From Arthrobacter sp. AQ5-05 (GTDB lineage: Bacteria; Actinomycetota; Actinomycetes; Actinomycetales; Micrococcaceae): a DNA stretch of 64,000 bases. The position numbers were made by a program, and so were the translations under genes. Below the pieces are notes generated by a model. The model was given only the letters and a program-made list of their open reading frames with translations. It ran no database searches and had not been told where the DNA came from. Below are positions 21,890 through 31,409 of the stretch, piece by piece. Location: assembly GCF_003287975.1 (NCBI RefSeq), contig NZ_QMKQ01000001.1, positions 248,001 through 312,000 on the forward strand. The letters are read 5' to 3'. Within the stretch, counting starts at the first letter, position 1, and every line of letters begins with the position of its first letter.

Positions 21890-22642
21890 ATGGCAATCTT
21901 CGGCCCAAGCGATGACCTGCACGGATCGAGATTCAACGACACAGACCTGCGCGGATCCTGGTTCAATGGCTGCGACCTCTCGGATGCGACGATGCGCGGG
22001 GGCAACATGCAGGGAGCCGAGATCGATGACCCCTGGCTGCTGCGGGACGGGGGAGTCCTGCTGGTCAACGGCATTGATGTGGTGCCCTTTGTGCGTGCGG
22101 AACTGCTGCGCCGCTTCCCGGGCAGGGCAACGATGCGGGCCGCGGACCCCGAGGGATTGCGCGCCGCCTGGGCGGCGGTGGAGCAGGCCTGGGCATCCAC
22201 CATGGAGCGGGCCGCGGCGCTGCCGGCGGGGGTGGTCGACGAGTCGGTGGACGGGGAATGGTCCTTCTCCCAGACGCTGCGGCACCTGGTCATGGCCACC
22301 GACATCTGGCTGCGCCTCACCATCGAAGGCATCGAGGCCCCGTTCCATCCCCTGGGCCAGCCCAACGACGGTTTTGCGGAGTACGGCTACGACGCCTCCG
22401 TCTTCAGTCCCGGCGTTCCCGCCTACGCCGAGGTGCTCGAGGCCAGGGCCGGGCGCGTGGCGATGGTGCGCGGGTTCCTGGCCAGGCTCACCGACGGTGA
22501 TCTCGAGGACAAGCACCCCAACCCCTGGAGCCCGCACCGCGAGGAGAGCACGCGCTCCTGCCTGCACGTGATCCTGTCCGAGGAATGGGAACACCTCCGC
22601 TTTGCCGTGCGCGACCTCGACGCCCTCGCGAAACGTGTTTGA
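21890..22642 (+). CDS. Pentapeptide-repeat/DinB-fold fusion protein
   Basis: 250-aa protein with two parts. Residues 1-50 carry a short run of pentapeptide-like repeats (GSRFNDTDLRGSWFNGCDLS, then ATMRGGNMQGAEI). The rest is a DinB_2-like four-helix bundle with EWSFSQTLRHLVMATDIW and a final SEEWEHLRFAVRDLDAL, where the His residues fit the metal site. ATG 21890 has GGGAGG six bases upstream. It is divergent from the mycothiol-isomerase-like gene at 21704 and probably shares its control region. The role is unknown. Confidence 0.8.
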   Translation: MAIFGPSDDLHGSRFNDTDLRGSWFNGCDLSDATMRGGNMQGAEIDDPWLLRDGGVLLVNGIDVVPFVRAELLRRFPGRATMRAADPEGLRAAWAAVEQAWASTMERAAALPAGVVDESVDGEWSFSQTLRHLVMATDIWLRLTIEGIEAPFHPLGQPNDGFAEYGYDASVFSPGVPAYAEVLEARAGRVAMVRGFLARLTDGDLEDKHPNPWSPHREESTRSCLHVILSEEWEHLRFAVRDLDALAKRV

Positions 22643-22657
22643 CGCAGGGCACGAAAA

Positions 22658-22702
22658 ACGGGCGGCGCCCTCACCGATTCCTCGGTGAAATGCCCCGCCC
22701 GT
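22658..22702. terminator. Bidirectional terminator between the DinB-fusion gene and argG
   Basis: A two-tier hairpin: outer arms ACGGGCGG (22658-22665) and CCGCCCGT (22695-22702), and an inner stem TCACCGA/TCGGTGA. A run of five A bases flanks the outer arm, so the leftward transcript (argG) ends in U residues. Confidence 0.8.
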
Positions 22703-22737
22703 CCCGGCAGCCCAAGCGGGCCGCCGGCATGGTGCTT

Positions 22738-24249
<1,512 letters not shown>

Positions 24250-24348
24250 TCATACTTGAATTTTCCGGGGGCCGTGGTCGCGGGCCCGTGCCGGTGGCGC
24301 CCCCGCGGGCGGAACCGGATGCATAATTATTTGAAGGGATGAATCCTT

Positions 24349-25332
24349 ATGAGTACTGTGGAGTATCGCCGTTTGGGCAGTTCCGGACTGGTGGTTTCGG
24401 CCGTCGGGCTCGGCTGCAACAACCTGGGCCGCGCCGGGACCGCCACCGAGGACCAGGCCGGAACCGACGCCGTCATCAACGCCGCACTTGAGTCGGGAAT
24501 CACATTCTTCGACGTGGCCGACACCTACGGCCGGGAGCCCGGTCTCGCGGAAACCATGCTCGGGGCGGCGCTGGGCAAGCGCCGCGACGAAGTCGTGGTC
24601 GGCACCAAGTTCGGCATGGACATGGGCGGGGCCAACGGCAACGACTTCGGTGCCCGCGGCTCGCGCCGCTACATCGTCCGCGCCGTGGAGGCCTCGCTGC
24701 GCCGGCTGGGCACCGAGTACATCGACCTGTACCAATTCCACAGTCCGGACCCGCTGACCCCCATCGATGAAACGCTGGCAGCCCTCGATAACCTGGTGGC
24801 CGCCGGCAAGGTGCGCTACATCGGGCACTCGAACCGCGCCGGCTGGCAGATCGCCGAGGCCGAATTCACCGCCCGCAGCTCCGGGGGAACGCGCTTCATC
24901 TCCTCGCAGAACCACTACAACCTGCTGGATCGGCGCGCCGAGCTCGAGGTGGTCCCGGCCGCGGAGGCATACTCGCTGGGCCTGCTGCCGTACTTCCCGC
25001 TGGCCAACGGGCTGCTCACCGGCAAGTACTCCGCGGGGCGGGCCCCGGAAGGCTCCCGGCTGACCCACGCCCGGACGCACCTGATGCACACCGTGGACTT
25101 CGGGCAGCTGCGCACCTTCTCCGATTTCGCCCGCGAGCGCGGCTTCACCGAACTTGAAATCGCCTTCTCCTGGCTCGCCGCCCAACCTTCGGTCGCCAGC
25201 GTCATAGCCGGGGCCACGCTGCCCGAACAGGTCGCGCAGAACGCCGCGGCGGTCTCCTGGAAGCCGTCGGAAGAAGACCTGGCAGAACTCGACACGATCT
25301 TCCCGCGCGTCCCGAAGATCGCGCTTTTCTAG
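24349..25332 (+). CDS. Aldo/keto reductase
   Basis: NADPH-dependent oxidoreductase of the (beta/alpha)8 AKR superfamily, 327 aa. The catalytic tetrad can be placed: Asp55 and Tyr60 (FFDVADTYG), Lys87 (GTKFG) and His131 (YQFHSPD). The cofactor end SVASVIAGATLPEQVAQN is present. It resembles the YghZ/Tas group; the substrate is unknown. ATG 24349 has GAAGGG about nine bases upstream, and a CATAAT at 24322-24327 may be the -10 box. It lies 3 bases before the nucleoside hydrolase gene, so the two are co-transcribed. Confidence 0.9.
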   Translation: MSTVEYRRLGSSGLVVSAVGLGCNNLGRAGTATEDQAGTDAVINAALESGITFFDVADTYGREPGLAETMLGAALGKRRDEVVVGTKFGMDMGGANGNDFGARGSRRYIVRAVEASLRRLGTEYIDLYQFHSPDPLTPIDETLAALDNLVAAGKVRYIGHSNRAGWQIAEAEFTARSSGGTRFISSQNHYNLLDRRAELEVVPAAEAYSLGLLPYFPLANGLLTGKYSAGRAPEGSRLTHARTHLMHTVDFGQLRTFSDFARERGFTELEIAFSWLAAQPSVASVIAGATLPEQVAQNAAAVSWKPSEEDLAELDTIFPRVPKIALF

Positions 25333-25335
25333 GCC

Positions 25336-26406
25336 ATGAGCCAACCGCGCATCCGGATCCTGCTCGACAACGACACCGGGATCGACGACGCCCTGGCCCT
25401 GGCCTACCTGGCCGCCTGCGAACACGTCGAAATCGTGGCGGTCACCGCGACGCCCGGCAACGTGGAAGCCGACCAGGTCGCGGCGAACAACCGGGCGCTG
25501 CTGGCGCTGTGCGGGGCCCCGCAGGTCCCGGTGCTCATCGGGGCACGAAAACCGCTGGCCCTCCCGCTGCTGACCACCCCGGAAACCCACGGGCCGCAGG
25601 GCGTCGGGTACGCCACACTGCCCGAGCCCGGACCGGCGGACCCGGGTGCGGGGGAGCGGGACGCGGTCGATCACTGGATCGAGGCGGCCCGCGCCAACCC
25701 CGGGGAGCTGACCGCGCTGCTGAGCGCCCCGCTGACCAACTTCGCGCTCGCGCTGCGCCGCGAACCGAAGCTGCCCTGGCTGCTGGGCAGGGTCGTGATC
25801 ATGGGCGGGGCCTTCTACCACCAGGGCAACACCACCCCGACCGCCGAGTGGAACACGCACGTGGACCCGCACGCCGCCGCCGAGGTCTACGCCGCGTACA
25901 CGGCCGCCGCAGAGGCCGGGCTGGAGGCGGCCAAGCTGCCGATCGTCTGCTCGCTGGATACCACCGAGCGCTTCGAGATGCACCCCGAACTGCTCACCGA
26001 CCTGGCCGCGGCCGCCGGGTGCACCGAACCGGAGACCGTGCGCGAGGACGACCCGGAAGGCACCCGCAGCACTGCCTCGAACCCGCTGGTGCGCTACCTG
26101 TCCGACGCGTTGCGCTTCTACTTCGAGTTCCACCGCGACTACGACCAGGGCTACATCGCCCACGTGCACGACTTCTTCGCTGCCGGGATCGCCGCCGGCA
26201 CCCTCGAATACAAGAGCCGGGCAGCGAACGTGGCAGTGGAAACCGAATCCCCGCTGCTCATCGGCACCACCGTGGCGGACTTCCGCGCGCTCTGGGGCAA
26301 GCCGGCCAACGCCCACGTGGTCACCTGGAACGACCCGGCCGCAGGATTCGCCGAGCTCGTCGAGAAACTCGGTGCGCTGGCCCGGCGGGTGACACCGGTG
26401 CCCTGA
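25336..26406 (+). CDS. Nucleoside hydrolase (IunH/RihA-like)
   Basis: Cleaves the N-glycosidic bond of ribonucleosides or an analogue to free base and sugar. The calcium-binding signature ILLDNDTGIDDALAL is at the N terminus (the DxDxxxDD cluster), and the second ligand region is VVIMGGAFYHQGN with AEWNTHVDPHAA. The length of 356 aa is slightly long for the family. Downstream genes encode a complete ECF importer, so the substrate is probably an imported nucleoside or N-glycoside; which one cannot be seen. Confidence 0.9.
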   Translation: MSQPRIRILLDNDTGIDDALALAYLAACEHVEIVAVTATPGNVEADQVAANNRALLALCGAPQVPVLIGARKPLALPLLTTPETHGPQGVGYATLPEPGPADPGAGERDAVDHWIEAARANPGELTALLSAPLTNFALALRREPKLPWLLGRVVIMGGAFYHQGNTTPTAEWNTHVDPHAAAEVYAAYTAAAEAGLEAAKLPIVCSLDTTERFEMHPELLTDLAAAAGCTEPETVREDDPEGTRSTASNPLVRYLSDALRFYFEFHRDYDQGYIAHVHDFFAAGIAAGTLEYKSRAANVAVETESPLLIGTTVADFRALWGKPANAHVVTWNDPAAGFAELVEKLGALARRVTPVP

Positions 26407-26485
26407 GCTAGAATCGTTGACCGGGTCGAGGTGACATAGGCCCGCACTCCACACCCGCTTCTGCGTACCCGAGGAACACCACGCC

Positions 26486-27292
26486 ATGTCACCGAACCTG
26501 ATCCTGCCCCAGACCGCCACCGGGCACCCGCTGCGCCGCCGGATGCTGGCCGCCGCCGGGGCCCTGCTGCTTGCCGGAACCTACACCGCGCTGGTCCTCA
26601 CCCAGCCCACCGGCCTGACCGACGGGCTGGGCCAGACCGTGGCACTGGCCACCTTCGCCGCCTACCTGGCCGCCGCACTGCTGCTGCTGGCCGCAGTGCT
26701 GCCCGAACTGCCGGTGGCCACCCTCACCCTGATCCCCGTGGCGCTGGCGCTGAACATCGTGCTGGGCCAGTTCGTCGGTTCCGTGATGGTCCCGCTCTAC
26801 CTGGACTCGCTGGGCACCGTGCTGGTCGGCTTCCTGGCCGGGCGCCGGGCCGGTGCCGCCACCGGCGTGCTCGGCACGCTGATCTGGTCGCTGTTCAACC
26901 CGACGGTGCTGCCGTTTGCCGCGGGAGCCGCACTGGTCGGCTTCCTGGCCGGCACCGCCGCCCGCTTCGGCACGCTGCGCCGCCCCTACCTGGCCCCGGT
27001 GGCCGGGCTGGCCGTCGGCGTGCTGGTGGGAGTGCTCTCCGCCCCGGTCGCCGCCTTCGTCTTCGGCGGCACCTCCGGGGTCGGCACCGGCGCGCTGGTC
27101 GCCGCATTCCGTTCCATGGGCGATTCGCTGCTCTCGGCGGTGACCAAGCAGGCGCTGATCTCCGATCCCGGGGACAAGGCCATCGTCTTCCTGCTCGCCG
27201 CGCTGCTCATCTACGCGCTGCCCGGCCGGCTCAGTGCCGGCTTCGCGTTTGTGCGCCGCCACAACGTGCTCGGCTCCCACGGCTCCAAATAG
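26486..27292 (+). CDS. ECF transporter S component
   Basis: Substrate-binding membrane subunit of an energy-coupling-factor importer, 268 aa. Helices occupy most of residues 20-250. The region LALNIVLGQFVGSVMVPLYLDSLGTVLVGFLAGRRAG, between about residues 87 and 125, has the motif arrangement seen in S components of the group that carries an aspartate in an LD pair, here LYLDSLGT. The downstream EcfT and double-ATPase genes complete the transporter. The preceding gene encodes a nucleoside hydrolase, so nucleoside-like substrates are the first guess. There is no TPP or FMN element before it. Confidence 0.82.
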   Translation: MSPNLILPQTATGHPLRRRMLAAAGALLLAGTYTALVLTQPTGLTDGLGQTVALATFAAYLAAALLLLAAVLPELPVATLTLIPVALALNIVLGQFVGSVMVPLYLDSLGTVLVGFLAGRRAGAATGVLGTLIWSLFNPTVLPFAAGAALVGFLAGTAARFGTLRRPYLAPVAGLAVGVLVGVLSAPVAAFVFGGTSGVGTGALVAAFRSMGDSLLSAVTKQALISDPGDKAIVFLLAALLIYALPGRLSAGFAFVRRHNVLGSHGSK

Positions 27293-27300
27293 CAGCTCCC

Positions 27301-28059
27301 ATGCCCCGCACCTGCCAGCTGCACCCCTTCACCGTGCTCGCCCTCGCCGCAGCGGTCACCGCCACCACCACGGCGGCAGGCCGCTGGTGGCTCAGCGTCG
27401 CGGTGCTGCTGGCATGCCTGCTGCTGGCTGCCTGGGCGCGGCGTGCCCGCAGGCTTGCCGGGCTGGCTGCGGCCATCCTGGCGCCGGCCTGGGGCTCCCA
27501 GCTGCTGATCCACGGGATGGCGGACACCGCCGGCGGCCACGTGCTGGCCGCCGCGGGCCCGCTGCGGATCACCGCCGAGGGGCTGGCGACCGCCGGGGCG
27601 CTGGGCTTGCGCACCGGGGTCCTGGTGGCGGCGGGGCTGCTGTGCACGTTGCTGATCGACCGGCACGAGCTCATTGCCGCGGTGGACCTGTCACCTGCCC
27701 CGCCGCAGCTGGGCTACCTTCTCGCGGCCACGCTGTTTCTGCTGCCTGCCCTGGAGCGGCGGCAGCGGGCCATCGGCCAGGCGCAATCGCTGCGCGGGGC
27801 AACCCCTGGAGGCGGGCCGCGCGGCTGGTTCCGCCGCGTGAGGCTGCGCTCGGTGCCGCTGGTGCTCGGTGCCCTGCAGGACGCCGCGGACCGCTCCGCC
27901 CACCTGGCCGCGCGCGGCTTCCCGGCCGCGGGGCCGCACACCCGCCTGCGCGAGGTGCAGGACTCGGCCGCCCAGCGCCGGGTGCGCCGGATCGCCCTGG
28001 CCTGCACCGTGCTGGGCCCGGTCGCGGTGCTGGCACCTTCCTGGATGGGTGCCGCGTGA
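27301..28059 (+). CDS. ECF transporter T component (EcfT/CbiQ family)
   Basis: Transmembrane coupling subunit, 252 aa, with about five hydrophobic helices in residues 10-150 and 225-250. The coupling-helix motifs that touch the ATPase grooves are recognisable as AQSLRGATPG and HLAARGFPAAG (Ala-Arg-Gly types). It begins 8 bases after the S gene and overlaps the ATPase gene by 4 bases (GTGA), so the three subunits are made together. Confidence 0.85.
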   Translation: MPRTCQLHPFTVLALAAAVTATTTAAGRWWLSVAVLLACLLLAAWARRARRLAGLAAAILAPAWGSQLLIHGMADTAGGHVLAAAGPLRITAEGLATAGALGLRTGVLVAAGLLCTLLIDRHELIAAVDLSPAPPQLGYLLAATLFLLPALERRQRAIGQAQSLRGATPGGGPRGWFRRVRLRSVPLVLGALQDAADRSAHLAARGFPAAGPHTRLREVQDSAAQRRVRRIALACTVLGPVAVLAPSWMGAA

Positions 28060-29486
28060 GCGCGGGCCAGAACGCCGTGCTCGGGCTGGAACTGGCACGC
28101 TTCCGCTATGCCGGGGCCTCCCGCGACACGCTTTCCGGGATCAGCCTGTCCCTGGCGCCGGGCTCGCTGACGGTGGTCCTGGGGGACTCGGGATCGGGCA
28201 AGTCCACGCTCGGAGCCGTGCTGGCCGGGATGCTGCCGCGCCACGACGGAGACGCGCTGGACGCGACGCTTCACCTGGCCGGCCAGGAGATCCGCCACCG
28301 TCCCGGCGCAGCGGTGCGCATCGATCCGGTCGGCTGGGCACGGCAGGTCGGGCTGCTGCCCCAGGATGCGCGCCACTTCCTCTCCGGGGTGCGCGCGACC
28401 GTGGCGGAGGAATTGGCCCTGGGCCTGGAGAACGCCGGGGTTCCCCGCGCGCAGATGCGCCGGCGGATCGCCGCGCTCGCTGACCAACTGGAACTGCACG
28501 AGTTGCTTCAACGCGATCCGGCCAAGCTCTCCGGCGGGCAGGAACGCCTGGTGGCGCTGGCGGCGCTCGGGCTCGATGCGCCGGCGGTGCTGGTCCTGGA
28601 CGAACCGCTGGCCGGCCTGGACTCCCCGGCTGCGGCCCGGATCTGGGAACTGCTGGACCGGCTGCGCGGTGGCGGCACCGCGCTGGTGCTGCTCGCCCGT
28701 GCCCTGGACCGGCTGGCGGCCGGCGCCGACACGGTGCTGGCCCTGCGCGAGGGCAGCTGCCACGCGATGGACACCGCTCTGCCGACCAGTGCCGCACCCG
28801 TGGCACCTGCGGCGCGCCGGGCACCGGGGGCGGAGCTGCTTCTCGGCTTCTCCGGGGTCGGGATCGGCTACCCGGGATCAGCAGGCCCCGTCGTTCAGGG
28901 CCTTGACCTGAAGGTGCGTGCCGGTGAATGCGTGGGGCTGGCCGGGCCCAACGGAAGCGGCAAGACCACGGTGCTCAAGGCCGCCGCCGGCCTGCTGCGC
29001 CCCGGCGCCGGGCAGGTGCACGGCAGCTCGCTGGCCGCCGGCACCGTGGGCCTGCTGCTGCAAAACCCGTCCGACCAGCTCTTCGAGCGCACCGTTGCCC
29101 GCGAGGTGGCCTTCGGCCTGCCCAAGCGCGGCCCGGAGGTGGCGCGGATCCCTGCGGTGCTGGCCTCGCTGGGCCTGGACGGGCATGCCCAGGCCCACCC
29201 CTACGAGCTGCCGGCCTCGGCCCGCCGGATTGTCGCCCTGGCCACGGTGCTGGTGCGCGAGCCGGGGGTGTTGCTGCTTGACGAGCCGACCGAGGCATTG
29301 GACGCGGACGGGTTGGCAAGGCTGCACGCGGCGCTCGCGGCGGTGCTTGACCGCGGAGGGGCGGTGCTGCTGGCCACCCACGATGAGGCGTTCATGGCCG
29401 CCACCGCGCACCGGGTGCACCGTATGGGCCCGGCCGTGCCCGCTGGGACAGGACCGGTGGCCCCGGGTAGAGTGGGGGAACTTTAG
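28056..29486 (+). CDS. ECF transporter ATPase with two fused ABC domains
   Basis: 476-aa ATPase with two ABC domains on one chain, like YkoD. Domain 1: Walker A GDSGSGKST (residues 43-51), signature LSGGQ (158-162), Walker B LVLDEP (179-184); the switch-His position reads LARALDRL, so the His is missing. Domain 2: Walker A GPNGSGKTT (297-305), Walker B LLLDEPT, switch His in ATHDEA (His442), but the signature place reads LPASARR instead of LSGGQ. One composite ATP site is therefore canonical and the other lacks both signature and His. GTG 28056 overlaps the EcfT stop. Confidence 0.9.
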   Translation: MSAGQNAVLGLELARFRYAGASRDTLSGISLSLAPGSLTVVLGDSGSGKSTLGAVLAGMLPRHDGDALDATLHLAGQEIRHRPGAAVRIDPVGWARQVGLLPQDARHFLSGVRATVAEELALGLENAGVPRAQMRRRIAALADQLELHELLQRDPAKLSGGQERLVALAALGLDAPAVLVLDEPLAGLDSPAAARIWELLDRLRGGGTALVLLARALDRLAAGADTVLALREGSCHAMDTALPTSAAPVAPAARRAPGAELLLGFSGVGIGYPGSAGPVVQGLDLKVRAGECVGLAGPNGSGKTTVLKAAAGLLRPGAGQVHGSSLAAGTVGLLLQNPSDQLFERTVAREVAFGLPKRGPEVARIPAVLASLGLDGHAQAHPYELPASARRIVALATVLVREPGVLLLDEPTEALDADGLARLHAALAAVLDRGGAVLLATHDEAFMAATAHRVHRMGPAVPAGTGPVAPGRVGEL

Positions 29487-29514
29487 GCCGGGGCAGATTG
29501 GCGACGGGAGTGGA

Positions 29515-30177
29515 ATGCCGCATGAGTTTGAGCGCTGGGAAGTGCTGGTGCGCGATGAGGCGCGCGTCGGGGTGCTCTACCGCTTGCTGGAATCCAGTGT
29601 CCTGCTCACCCGCGTCTGGGTCGAGGGAGACGGTGAGCCCTACCGTGCCGAGTCGCGCCTCCGTCTGGAGCCCGGGAACGGAAGCTGGGAACTGAGCTGG
29701 TACAGGGACCGGAACCTGGGCATGGCCAAGCTGATGCGCCGGGAGCCGCAGGGCCTGCCCTCCGGCTCCATGCCGAGCTACGGAGATATCCTGATGCTGT
29801 TCAAGGCCATGGAGGATCCGGGGAGCCCGTTGCACTACTGGCGGCTGAACGAGGCTGCCTGGGACGCGCAGGATGCCAACGGCCACCTGGGCGCCGAACC
29901 CAATGCGCACATCCAGCGGGTCGGTGCGCTCGAACAACTGCCCATCCCGTTGGGTGCCACGGTGTCGACCCACCGCTACGAGGCATGGGCCGACGGGGTC
30001 CTGGTCGCCACGTACTGGGTCGATGAAGGCAACGAATTGGTGTGCACGCTGTGGGGCGTGGACCTGCACAGCTACCGGGTGCCGGGGACGGCCAGCGAGG
30101 CCGGATGGATGTCGCTGTCCGGGCTCGACGACGGAACCATCGAGTTCATGACCAGGGGCTTTGACGCGGGTTCCTGA
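29515..30177 (+). CDS. Conserved hypothetical protein
   Basis: A 220-aa soluble protein that I do not recognise. It begins MPHEFERWEVLVRDEARVG, contains WELSWYRDRNLGMAKLMRRE and PSYGDILMLFKAMEDPGSP, and ends LSGLDDGTIEFMTRGF. There is no signal peptide or membrane helix. ATG 29515 has GGGAG upstream. It lies 28 bases after the ECF ATPase gene, so it could be the last gene of that transcript, but no functional link is visible. Confidence 0.7.
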   Translation: MPHEFERWEVLVRDEARVGVLYRLLESSVLLTRVWVEGDGEPYRAESRLRLEPGNGSWELSWYRDRNLGMAKLMRREPQGLPSGSMPSYGDILMLFKAMEDPGSPLHYWRLNEAAWDAQDANGHLGAEPNAHIQRVGALEQLPIPLGATVSTHRYEAWADGVLVATYWVDEGNELVCTLWGVDLHSYRVPGTASEAGWMSLSGLDDGTIEFMTRGFDAGS

Positions 30178-30183
30178 CGGCTC

Positions 30184-30819
<636 letters not shown>

Positions 30820-30848
30820 GGCTGGTCGGCTCCTTCGGGACAAGAAAA

Positions 30849-30877
30849 TGGGTAGGCGCCCACCGGGCACCTACCCA
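30849..30877 (-). terminator. Rho-independent terminator of the Rieske gene
   Basis: The arms TGGGTAGG and CCTACCCA (30849-30856, 30870-30877) flank a GC-rich loop. On the minus strand the stem is followed by TTTTCTTG, a true U-tract. It ends transcription of the Rieske gene at 30930 before the cysteine hydrolase. Confidence 0.85.
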
Positions 30878-30929
30878 CCAACCTATGACGCCTTGCCCTC
30901 CAAGGGAAGGGATGCCGCCTCCAGCGGCC

Positions 30930-31409
30930 CTAGACGTAGATCAGGACCTTGTCGCCCTTGATTTCGGCGGCGAAGCGCTCCAGTGCGGCACGGGCCGGAC
31001 CGGCAACGGCACTGCCGTCCTCGGGTTGGAAGTAGGAGCCGTGGCAGGGGCAGTAGAAGGCCTCGCCGTTGGGATCCTTGGTGGTCACCGCGCAGCCCTG
31101 GTGGGTGCAGATCGCGGTGTAGGCCAGCACCGTCTTCTCGTTGGGGCGGAAGAGCAGGAACCCTGCCTGCTTTCCGGCTTCCTCGCCCCGGGTGCGCACC
31201 GCGGCGACCGACAGCCGCGTTCCCACGGGCAGCTCGGCCACGGTGGCCACGACGGTTCCCTCGCCTTCGGGTGCCGGGGGAGCGGAAGGCTCGTTGTTCG
31301 GTGCGGCCGAGGAACCGTCGCCGCAGGCGGCCAGTGCCAAGGTGGCGCTGGCGGCCACGGTGGTGCCGACGAAGGCGCGGCGCGTGCAATCAGGGATGGG
31401 CAAACTCAT
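30930..31409 (-). CDS. Rieske [2Fe-2S] lipoprotein, Tat-exported
   Basis: 159-aa exported electron-transfer protein. The N terminus has a twin-arginine motif (TRRAFVG), a hydrophobic stretch and a lipobox LAAC, so it is a Tat lipoprotein anchored outside the membrane. The cluster ligands are the Cys and His of CTHQGC and CPCHGS, in normal order and spacing. The linker is Pro/Ser/Gly-rich. Start uncertain (31409 or a Met a few codons upstream). It follows a paralogue at 31494-31925. The electron partner is unknown. Confidence 0.88.
   Translation of the reverse strand: MSLPIPDCTRRAFVGTTVAASATLALAACGDGSSAAPNNEPSAPPAPEGEGTVVATVAELPVGTRLSVAAVRTRGEEAGKQAGFLLFRPNEKTVLAYTAICTHQGCAVTTKDPNGEAFYCPCHGSYFQPEDGSAVAGPARAALERFAAEIKGDKVLIYV

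Follow-up and report, generated by a model that had tools for sequence, protein, structure and literature searches.

Among the described systems closest to the locus studied here, the queuosine salvage operon of C. difficile combines queK, which encodes a queuosine nucleoside hydrolase, with qrtT, which encodes the substrate-binding (S) component of an energy-coupling factor (ECF) transporter (PMC11477304, PMC11130926). In ECF transporters, the S component is cycled through the membrane by a T component and ATPases, and cryo-EM has revealed different nucleotides in the two ATP sites, which suggests consecutive binding of ATP and hydrolysis that may not be synchronous (PMC10368641). Queuine salvage is predicted for most gut Actinomycetota, with transporters missing in many, and many queuosine-scavenging bacteria have no known transporter (PMC11130926). 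Here, we analyze a 64,000-nucleotide stretch (the window) from the 4.65-Mb genome of Arthrobacter sp. AQ5-05 (contig NZ_QMKQ01000001.1, positions 248,001 to 312,000), where an operon encodes a nucleoside hydrolase (NH) and a dedicated ECF transporter. This system is likely to import queuosine and to salvage it as queuine through a cytoplasmic QueK-like hydrolase, with a motor in which one ATP site does most of the catalysis.

A sequence-only reading of the window had proposed an NH operon with an ECF importer that has a double ATPase, and had left the cargo as a nucleoside or N-glycoside. The genes are present as it described them, and besides the NH they encode S and T components and an ATPase with both cassettes fused. 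Queuosine was considered because of the QueK/QrtT pairing in C. difficile and the predicted queuine salvage of Actinomycetota. The nucleoside part of the earlier proposal is retained, and the substrate can be narrowed. Because the system covers the loss of the queuosine precursor transporter (QPTR) in genomes that keep tRNA-guanine transglycosylase (TGT), and shares an operon with QPTR in one genus, its substrate is most likely queuosine.

Results

Presence of the system follows loss of QPTR and retention of TGT

In a first sample, TGT was present in all 61 Micrococcaceae genomes, seven of which had no QPTR; six of these seven carried the S component, and the genome of the seventh is 82% complete. 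No S component was found in the 26 genomes of this sample that have no TGT. The main sample comprised 295 Micrococcaceae genomes, each at least 95% complete, and here the S component occurred in 43 of the 48 genomes without QPTR versus 98 of the 247 with it (Fisher's test, 5e-11, with kinship not corrected for; within-genus stratified test, 1.3e-5, with species treated as independent, which is not fully true).

Why do five genomes manage with neither QPTR nor the S component? A prediction written down before the search held that these five should have no TGT. TGT was missing in exactly these exceptions, and was present in all 43 S carriers without QPTR and in four controls of the same genus that have QPTR and no NH-ECF system. 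Within that genus, which has 15 QPTR-lacking genomes, such agreement would have a chance probability of 1 in 3003 were the species independent, a condition that holds only in part. Every carrier tested has TGT, and the system is absent from the 26 and the five TGT-less genomes alike.

QPTR within the operon

Five genomes of one genus (g13) have both systems, and in every one of them QPTR lies within or directly at the end of the NH-ECF operon and on its strand, which links the system to a known queuosine gene. It follows the ATPase gene in three of them (L057, L145 and L147) and stands between NH and S in the other two (L146 and L148). In the other genomes looked at, QPTR is located near TGT, which supports its role in Micrococcaceae; no TGT was seen in the operon loci retrieved. 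According to a 2017 study, yhhQ, the QPTR gene, does not cluster with ECF genes (PMC5372724), and the arrangement in g13 appears not to have been noted before.

The TGT pocket was considered as an indicator of queuine use. In the Micrococcaceae enzymes (L165 and others) it reads GGALEKE, which differs from both the preQ1 type (GGLAVG) and the described queuine type (GG[LS][AS]G) and is not covered by published pocket rules. TGTs of genomes carrying distant S relatives have a preQ1-type pocket, GG[LY]SVGE.

The nucleoside hydrolase

NH, S, T and ATPase genes lie side by side in the same orientation in almost all close orthologues, across several genera, and NH is the most constant neighbor of S among them. 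Among distant S relatives (30-35% identity), an NH is nearby in four loci (L059, L061, L110 and L111) and not in three (L060, L112 and L113). The enzyme has an NH fold (PF01156) with intact catalytic residues, as expected of a QueK: among the metal and ribose contacts, D11, D13, D17, D18, N42, N165, E171, N173 and D279 do not vary across the aligned orthologues, and H278 is nearly invariant (at least 90%). Since these residues are conserved and inspection by eye showed no signal peptide, the NH should act in the cytoplasm and cut an imported ribonucleoside. It would be QueK-like and cleave queuosine to queuine.

The cargo might instead be any ordinary purine or pyrimidine nucleoside, from which the NH frees base and ribose for salvage and carbon. 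The enzyme belongs to the IU_nuc_hydro family, with the pyrimidine-specific RihA as its closest PDB match, and distant CD3073-type systems have adenosine deaminase, RbsD/ribokinase/ribose ABC genes or PfkB kinases as neighbors, all of which suits such general scavenging. However, it leaves unexplained the S component in 43 of 48 genomes without QPTR and the loss of TGT in the other five, and it offers no reason for QPTR in the operon of all five g13 genomes with both systems. In addition, no nucleoside deaminase or base phosphoribosyltransferase was recognized next to close orthologues. We consider general scavenging unlikely.

The S and T components

The best match of the S component is ECF_S_CD3073, relative to which the window protein carries two extra N-terminal helices. 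Its structure model (mean pLDDT 85) has the ECF S fold, and the plausible PDB matches are all ECF S components (PanT, RibU, FolT, ThiT and BioY), with Foldseek probabilities of 0.96-1.00 and yet weak E-values of just 0.1-0.7. No known vitamin transporter was matched; a vitamin was rejected as the substrate, there being no sequence match at cut-off and just a weak match to FolT. Both coupling motifs of the T component, SLRG and AARG, are conserved in orthologues, with the Arg kept in all common variants. Because T keeps both Arg motifs, the two cassettes should remain mechanically coupled. An S fold, a T component with two Arg motifs and two ATPase domains together identify an ECF transporter, that is, a type III ATP-binding cassette (ABC) importer.

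The wider S family may differ in substrate. In one genome (L060:8390-9523, G018), an adenosine deaminase gene immediately precedes a divergent CD3073-type ECF system, which suggests an adenosine-like substrate in this branch. In another (L110:2411-11731, G138), CD3073-type ECF genes are flanked by a ribose operon (PfkB, ribose-type ABC importer and RbsD) on one side and a divergent NH on the other. A separate protein, encoded in the genome to which the window belongs (L114:7335-8594; C11, about 51.3-52.6 kb), has a long N-terminal region that is helix-turn-helix-like by eye, followed by a membrane domain of ECF S type (NF045596, 77 bits), and could be a membrane-bound one-piece regulator. Its gene sits between a peptide/nickel-type ABC importer and urease genes, and weaker S-profile matches of this kind occur in several related genomes.

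Conserved degeneracy of one ATP site

In the ABC architecture, each composite ATP site consists of the Walker A, Q-loop, Walker B and switch of one domain and the signature of the other. Site 1 is here the site of domain 1 that takes its signature from domain 2, and site 2 is the reverse. In the window protein, domain 1 has LSGGQ and no switch His, and domain 2 has the switch His and LPASARR in place of a signature, exactly as the sequence-only reading had described; its deduction that one composite site is degenerate and the other complete holds as well. Three motif residues remain in site 1, namely the Lys of Walker A, the Gln of the Q-loop and the Glu of Walker B (Walker B is VLVLDEP in domain 1 and VLLLDEP in domain 2); the partner signature and the His are missing. 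The ATPase model resembles closed, ATP-bound double cassettes such as DppD (8wdb).

This degeneracy is conserved in a non-redundant set of 55 orthologues (below 90% identity). LSGGQ in both domains, which would have refuted the sequence-only reading, occurs in none of them; signature 2 is canonical in 0/55 and has its fourth-position Gly in 0/55, and just 12 retain the switch His of domain 1. At site 1, the Walker A Lys is kept in 41 orthologues, the Glu in 41 (lost in 14) and the Gln in 43; in genus g13 all three are lost together (GPQGAGTST, LGDDP and VLVLDQP), so that by its sequence site 1 would be fully dead there. The degenerate residues are all in this one composite site. The other is canonical, with all five features in 54 of 54 orthologues read in one frame and LSGG[QE] as the domain 1 signature in 55 of 55. 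The asymmetry is thus conserved, since every loss falls in one composite site, as expected if catalysis resides in a single site, and the ATPase would be driven mainly by site 2. The sole exception to a complete site 2 is one locus (L053:9033-10625, G044) where the second ATPase domain is in another reading frame, owing to a frameshift, a sequencing error or a separate gene.

Could signature 2 simply have drifted neutrally, with both sites hydrolyzing at similar rates? Site 1 retains its Lys, Gln and Glu in 41-43 of the 55 orthologues, including the window protein, and LSxGQ is tolerated in other fused ECF ATPases. But drift does not account for a pattern in which site 2 never changes and site 1 alone gathers losses, in g13 as many as Lys, Gln and Glu at once, and we give it little credence. 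The hallmark of degenerate-site ABC exporters is loss of the Walker B Glu (PMC7544095); this loss is not seen in the degenerate site of the window protein, which keeps the Glu.

Such asymmetry had been thought unusual for ECF importers, which is only partly the case. Among 27 fused ECF ATPases from other actinobacterial systems, signature 2 is mostly LSxGQ, which makes a mild version of the asymmetry, with the same orientation, common. The Ser/Thr is kept in 27/27 and the fourth-position Gly in 26/27, strictly LSGGQ/LSAGQ-type signatures occur in 4/27, and the switch His of domain 1 is kept in 21 and absent in 6. What is special to the NH-linked family, in the sequences compared, is the joint loss of the Ser, both Gly and the Gln in signature 2, which makes this family the extreme.

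Gene assignments and surroundings

The features of the operon are listed in Table 1. The best NCBIfam models for the fused ATPase are ECF_ATPase_2/1, with scores below their cut-offs. The closest named relatives of the S component are those of Paeniglutamicibacter psychrophenolicus and Arthrobacter sp. C2 (96%), which places the source organism in Paeniglutamicibacter or near it, within the Micrococcaceae.

Table 1. Genes and ATPase motifs of the NH-ECF locus, in positions of the window
Feature	Positions	Strand	Remarks
Aldo/keto reductase (AKR)	24349-25332	+	PF00248; ends 3 nt upstream of NH; loosely linked, some genera without it
Nucleoside hydrolase (NH), IU_nuc_hydro family	25336-26406	+	PF01156, 253.6 bits
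ECF S (substrate-binding) component	26486-27292	+	Distant relative of ECF_S_CD3073 (NF045596), below cut-off
ECF T component, CbiQ family	27301-28059	+	PF02361, 44 bits
Fused double ECF ATPase	28056-29486	+	Two PF00005 stretches; GTG start, 4-nt overlap with T stop
Walker A of domain 1, GDSGSGKST	28182-28208	+	Degenerate site 1
Signature of domain 1, LSGGQ	28527-28541	+	Intact site 2
Arg215, replacing switch His of domain 1	28698-28700	+	Site 1
Walker A of domain 2, GPNGSGKTT	28944-28970	+	Intact site 2
LPASARR, replacing signature of domain 2	29208-29228	+	Partner of Walker A 1, site 1
Switch His442 of domain 2	29379-29381	+	Site 2

Both NH and AKR had been regarded as linked to the transporter. 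The NH is indeed constant; of 31 distinct loci, only 14 have the AKR, which many genera, including Glutamicibacter, do not carry there, and it was therefore left out of the pathway. Neighbors conserved outside the operon were judged to be ordinary synteny and were likewise not taken as pathway parts. In Arthrobacter sp. Leaf141, a gene that is disulfide-reductase-like by eye lies antisense between NH and S (L085:4356-5777), and the S-T-ATPase unit is therefore separable from NH. Just 3' of the ATPase, the window encodes a protein (29515-30177) with no Pfam or NCBIfam match, kept mainly in close relatives within the genus. A consensus scan, which is uninformative at this GC content, gave no sigma-70-type promoters or terminators between the genes, and no S relatives were found among plasmid records.

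Discussion

From the presence pattern, the shared operon and the conserved residues, we infer the exact substrate, the inward direction of transport, the hydrolysis of queuosine and the mechanism of the ATPase. The S component would capture a queuosine precursor outside the cell, most likely the nucleoside queuosine itself, and the T component and fused ATPase would reset or drive S, cycling it through the membrane as in other ECF transporters. Site 2 would hydrolyze ATP, with site 1 binding ATP structurally or hydrolyzing it poorly. In the cytoplasm, the NH would split queuosine into queuine and ribose, and TGT would insert queuine into tRNA. The NH-ECF system may act alongside QPTR or instead of it; whether this queuosine importer, with its own hydrolase and one-site ATPase, has displaced QPTR in several Micrococcaceae lineages is in our judgment an evenly balanced matter. 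That the ECF transporter carries the precursor base (queuine or preQ1), with the NH serving a separate nucleoside pool, is very doubtful, for while QPTR, which the system apparently replaced, carries bases (PMC11570991) and a genome with QPTR only needs no hydrolase, the NH is the most constant neighbor of S in close orthologues and accompanies it in distant ones too, and the same pairing serves queuosine in C. difficile.

Several observations weigh against queuosine import by a one-site motor. QPTR losses are confined to six genera and thus reflect few independent events, and nothing can be learned from genera g7 and g28, in which all sampled members have the operon. Three genomes of another family in the same order (G063, G079 and G095) have TGT and neither QPTR nor an NH-ECF system that could be found, and further queuosine-precursor transporters must therefore exist. 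Queuosine, the queuine base and preQ1 are not told apart by these data. The S component scores 80.8 bits (E 9e-23) against ECF_S_CD3073, short of the curated cut-off of 180, and gave no Pfam match at E <= 0.1, the models for QrtT (PF12822) and QueT (PF06177) included; adenosine deaminase (L060), a ribose operon (L110) and PfkB kinases (L111) are found next to its distant relatives. No preQ1 riboswitch or other Rfam match was obtained at E <= 1 in positions 22000-31000. Finally, residual activity of site 1 is possible in the window protein, where its Lys (Walker A) and Glu (Walker B) are still in place.

If the assignment to queuosine and the one-site ATPase both hold true, the system would supply a step that queuosine salvage in actinobacteria has lacked, and its motor would be the first naturally one-site ECF motor as far as our literature search showed. 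It provides a concrete candidate queuosine transporter in a large soil family, and the prediction has already passed one prospective test. These proteins also represent a natural experiment on how many working ATP sites, one or two, are required by an ECF motor. Nothing was found in the literature on CD3073, or on a link of ECF plus nucleoside hydrolase to Micrococcaceae, and the literature searched gives no description of queuosine salvage by this route in these bacteria.

Comparison with known systems places the operon closest to queK-qrtT-queL of C. difficile, which likewise pairs a nucleoside hydrolase gene with an ECF S component in cells unable to make queuosine. QrtT uses a shared general ECF module, whereas the window system has a dedicated T component and fused ATPase, and its S component belongs to another family. 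The C. difficile operon also has QueL and a preQ1 riboswitch (PMC11477304), whereas no QueL-like gene was recognized and no riboswitch found in the window operon. QPTR (YhhQ, COG1738, PF02592) shares the import of queuosine precursors and would be functionally exchangeable with the system in Micrococcaceae, but it is a single protein without an ATPase, and its gene is unrelated to those of NH-ECF. The nearest named family, ECF_S_CD3073 (NF045596), is a putative ECF S family; its distant actinobacterial systems, with fused or separate ATPases, share the canonical first and degenerate second signature. Other actinobacterial fused ECF ATPases resemble the window protein in having two cassettes in one chain and a signature 2 off consensus, but keep the Ser and Gly that the window family usually lacks together with the second Gly and the Gln. 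TM287/288, BmrCD, TAP and MRP1 also combine one consensus with one degenerate site; these are exporters, whereas the window encodes an ECF importer.

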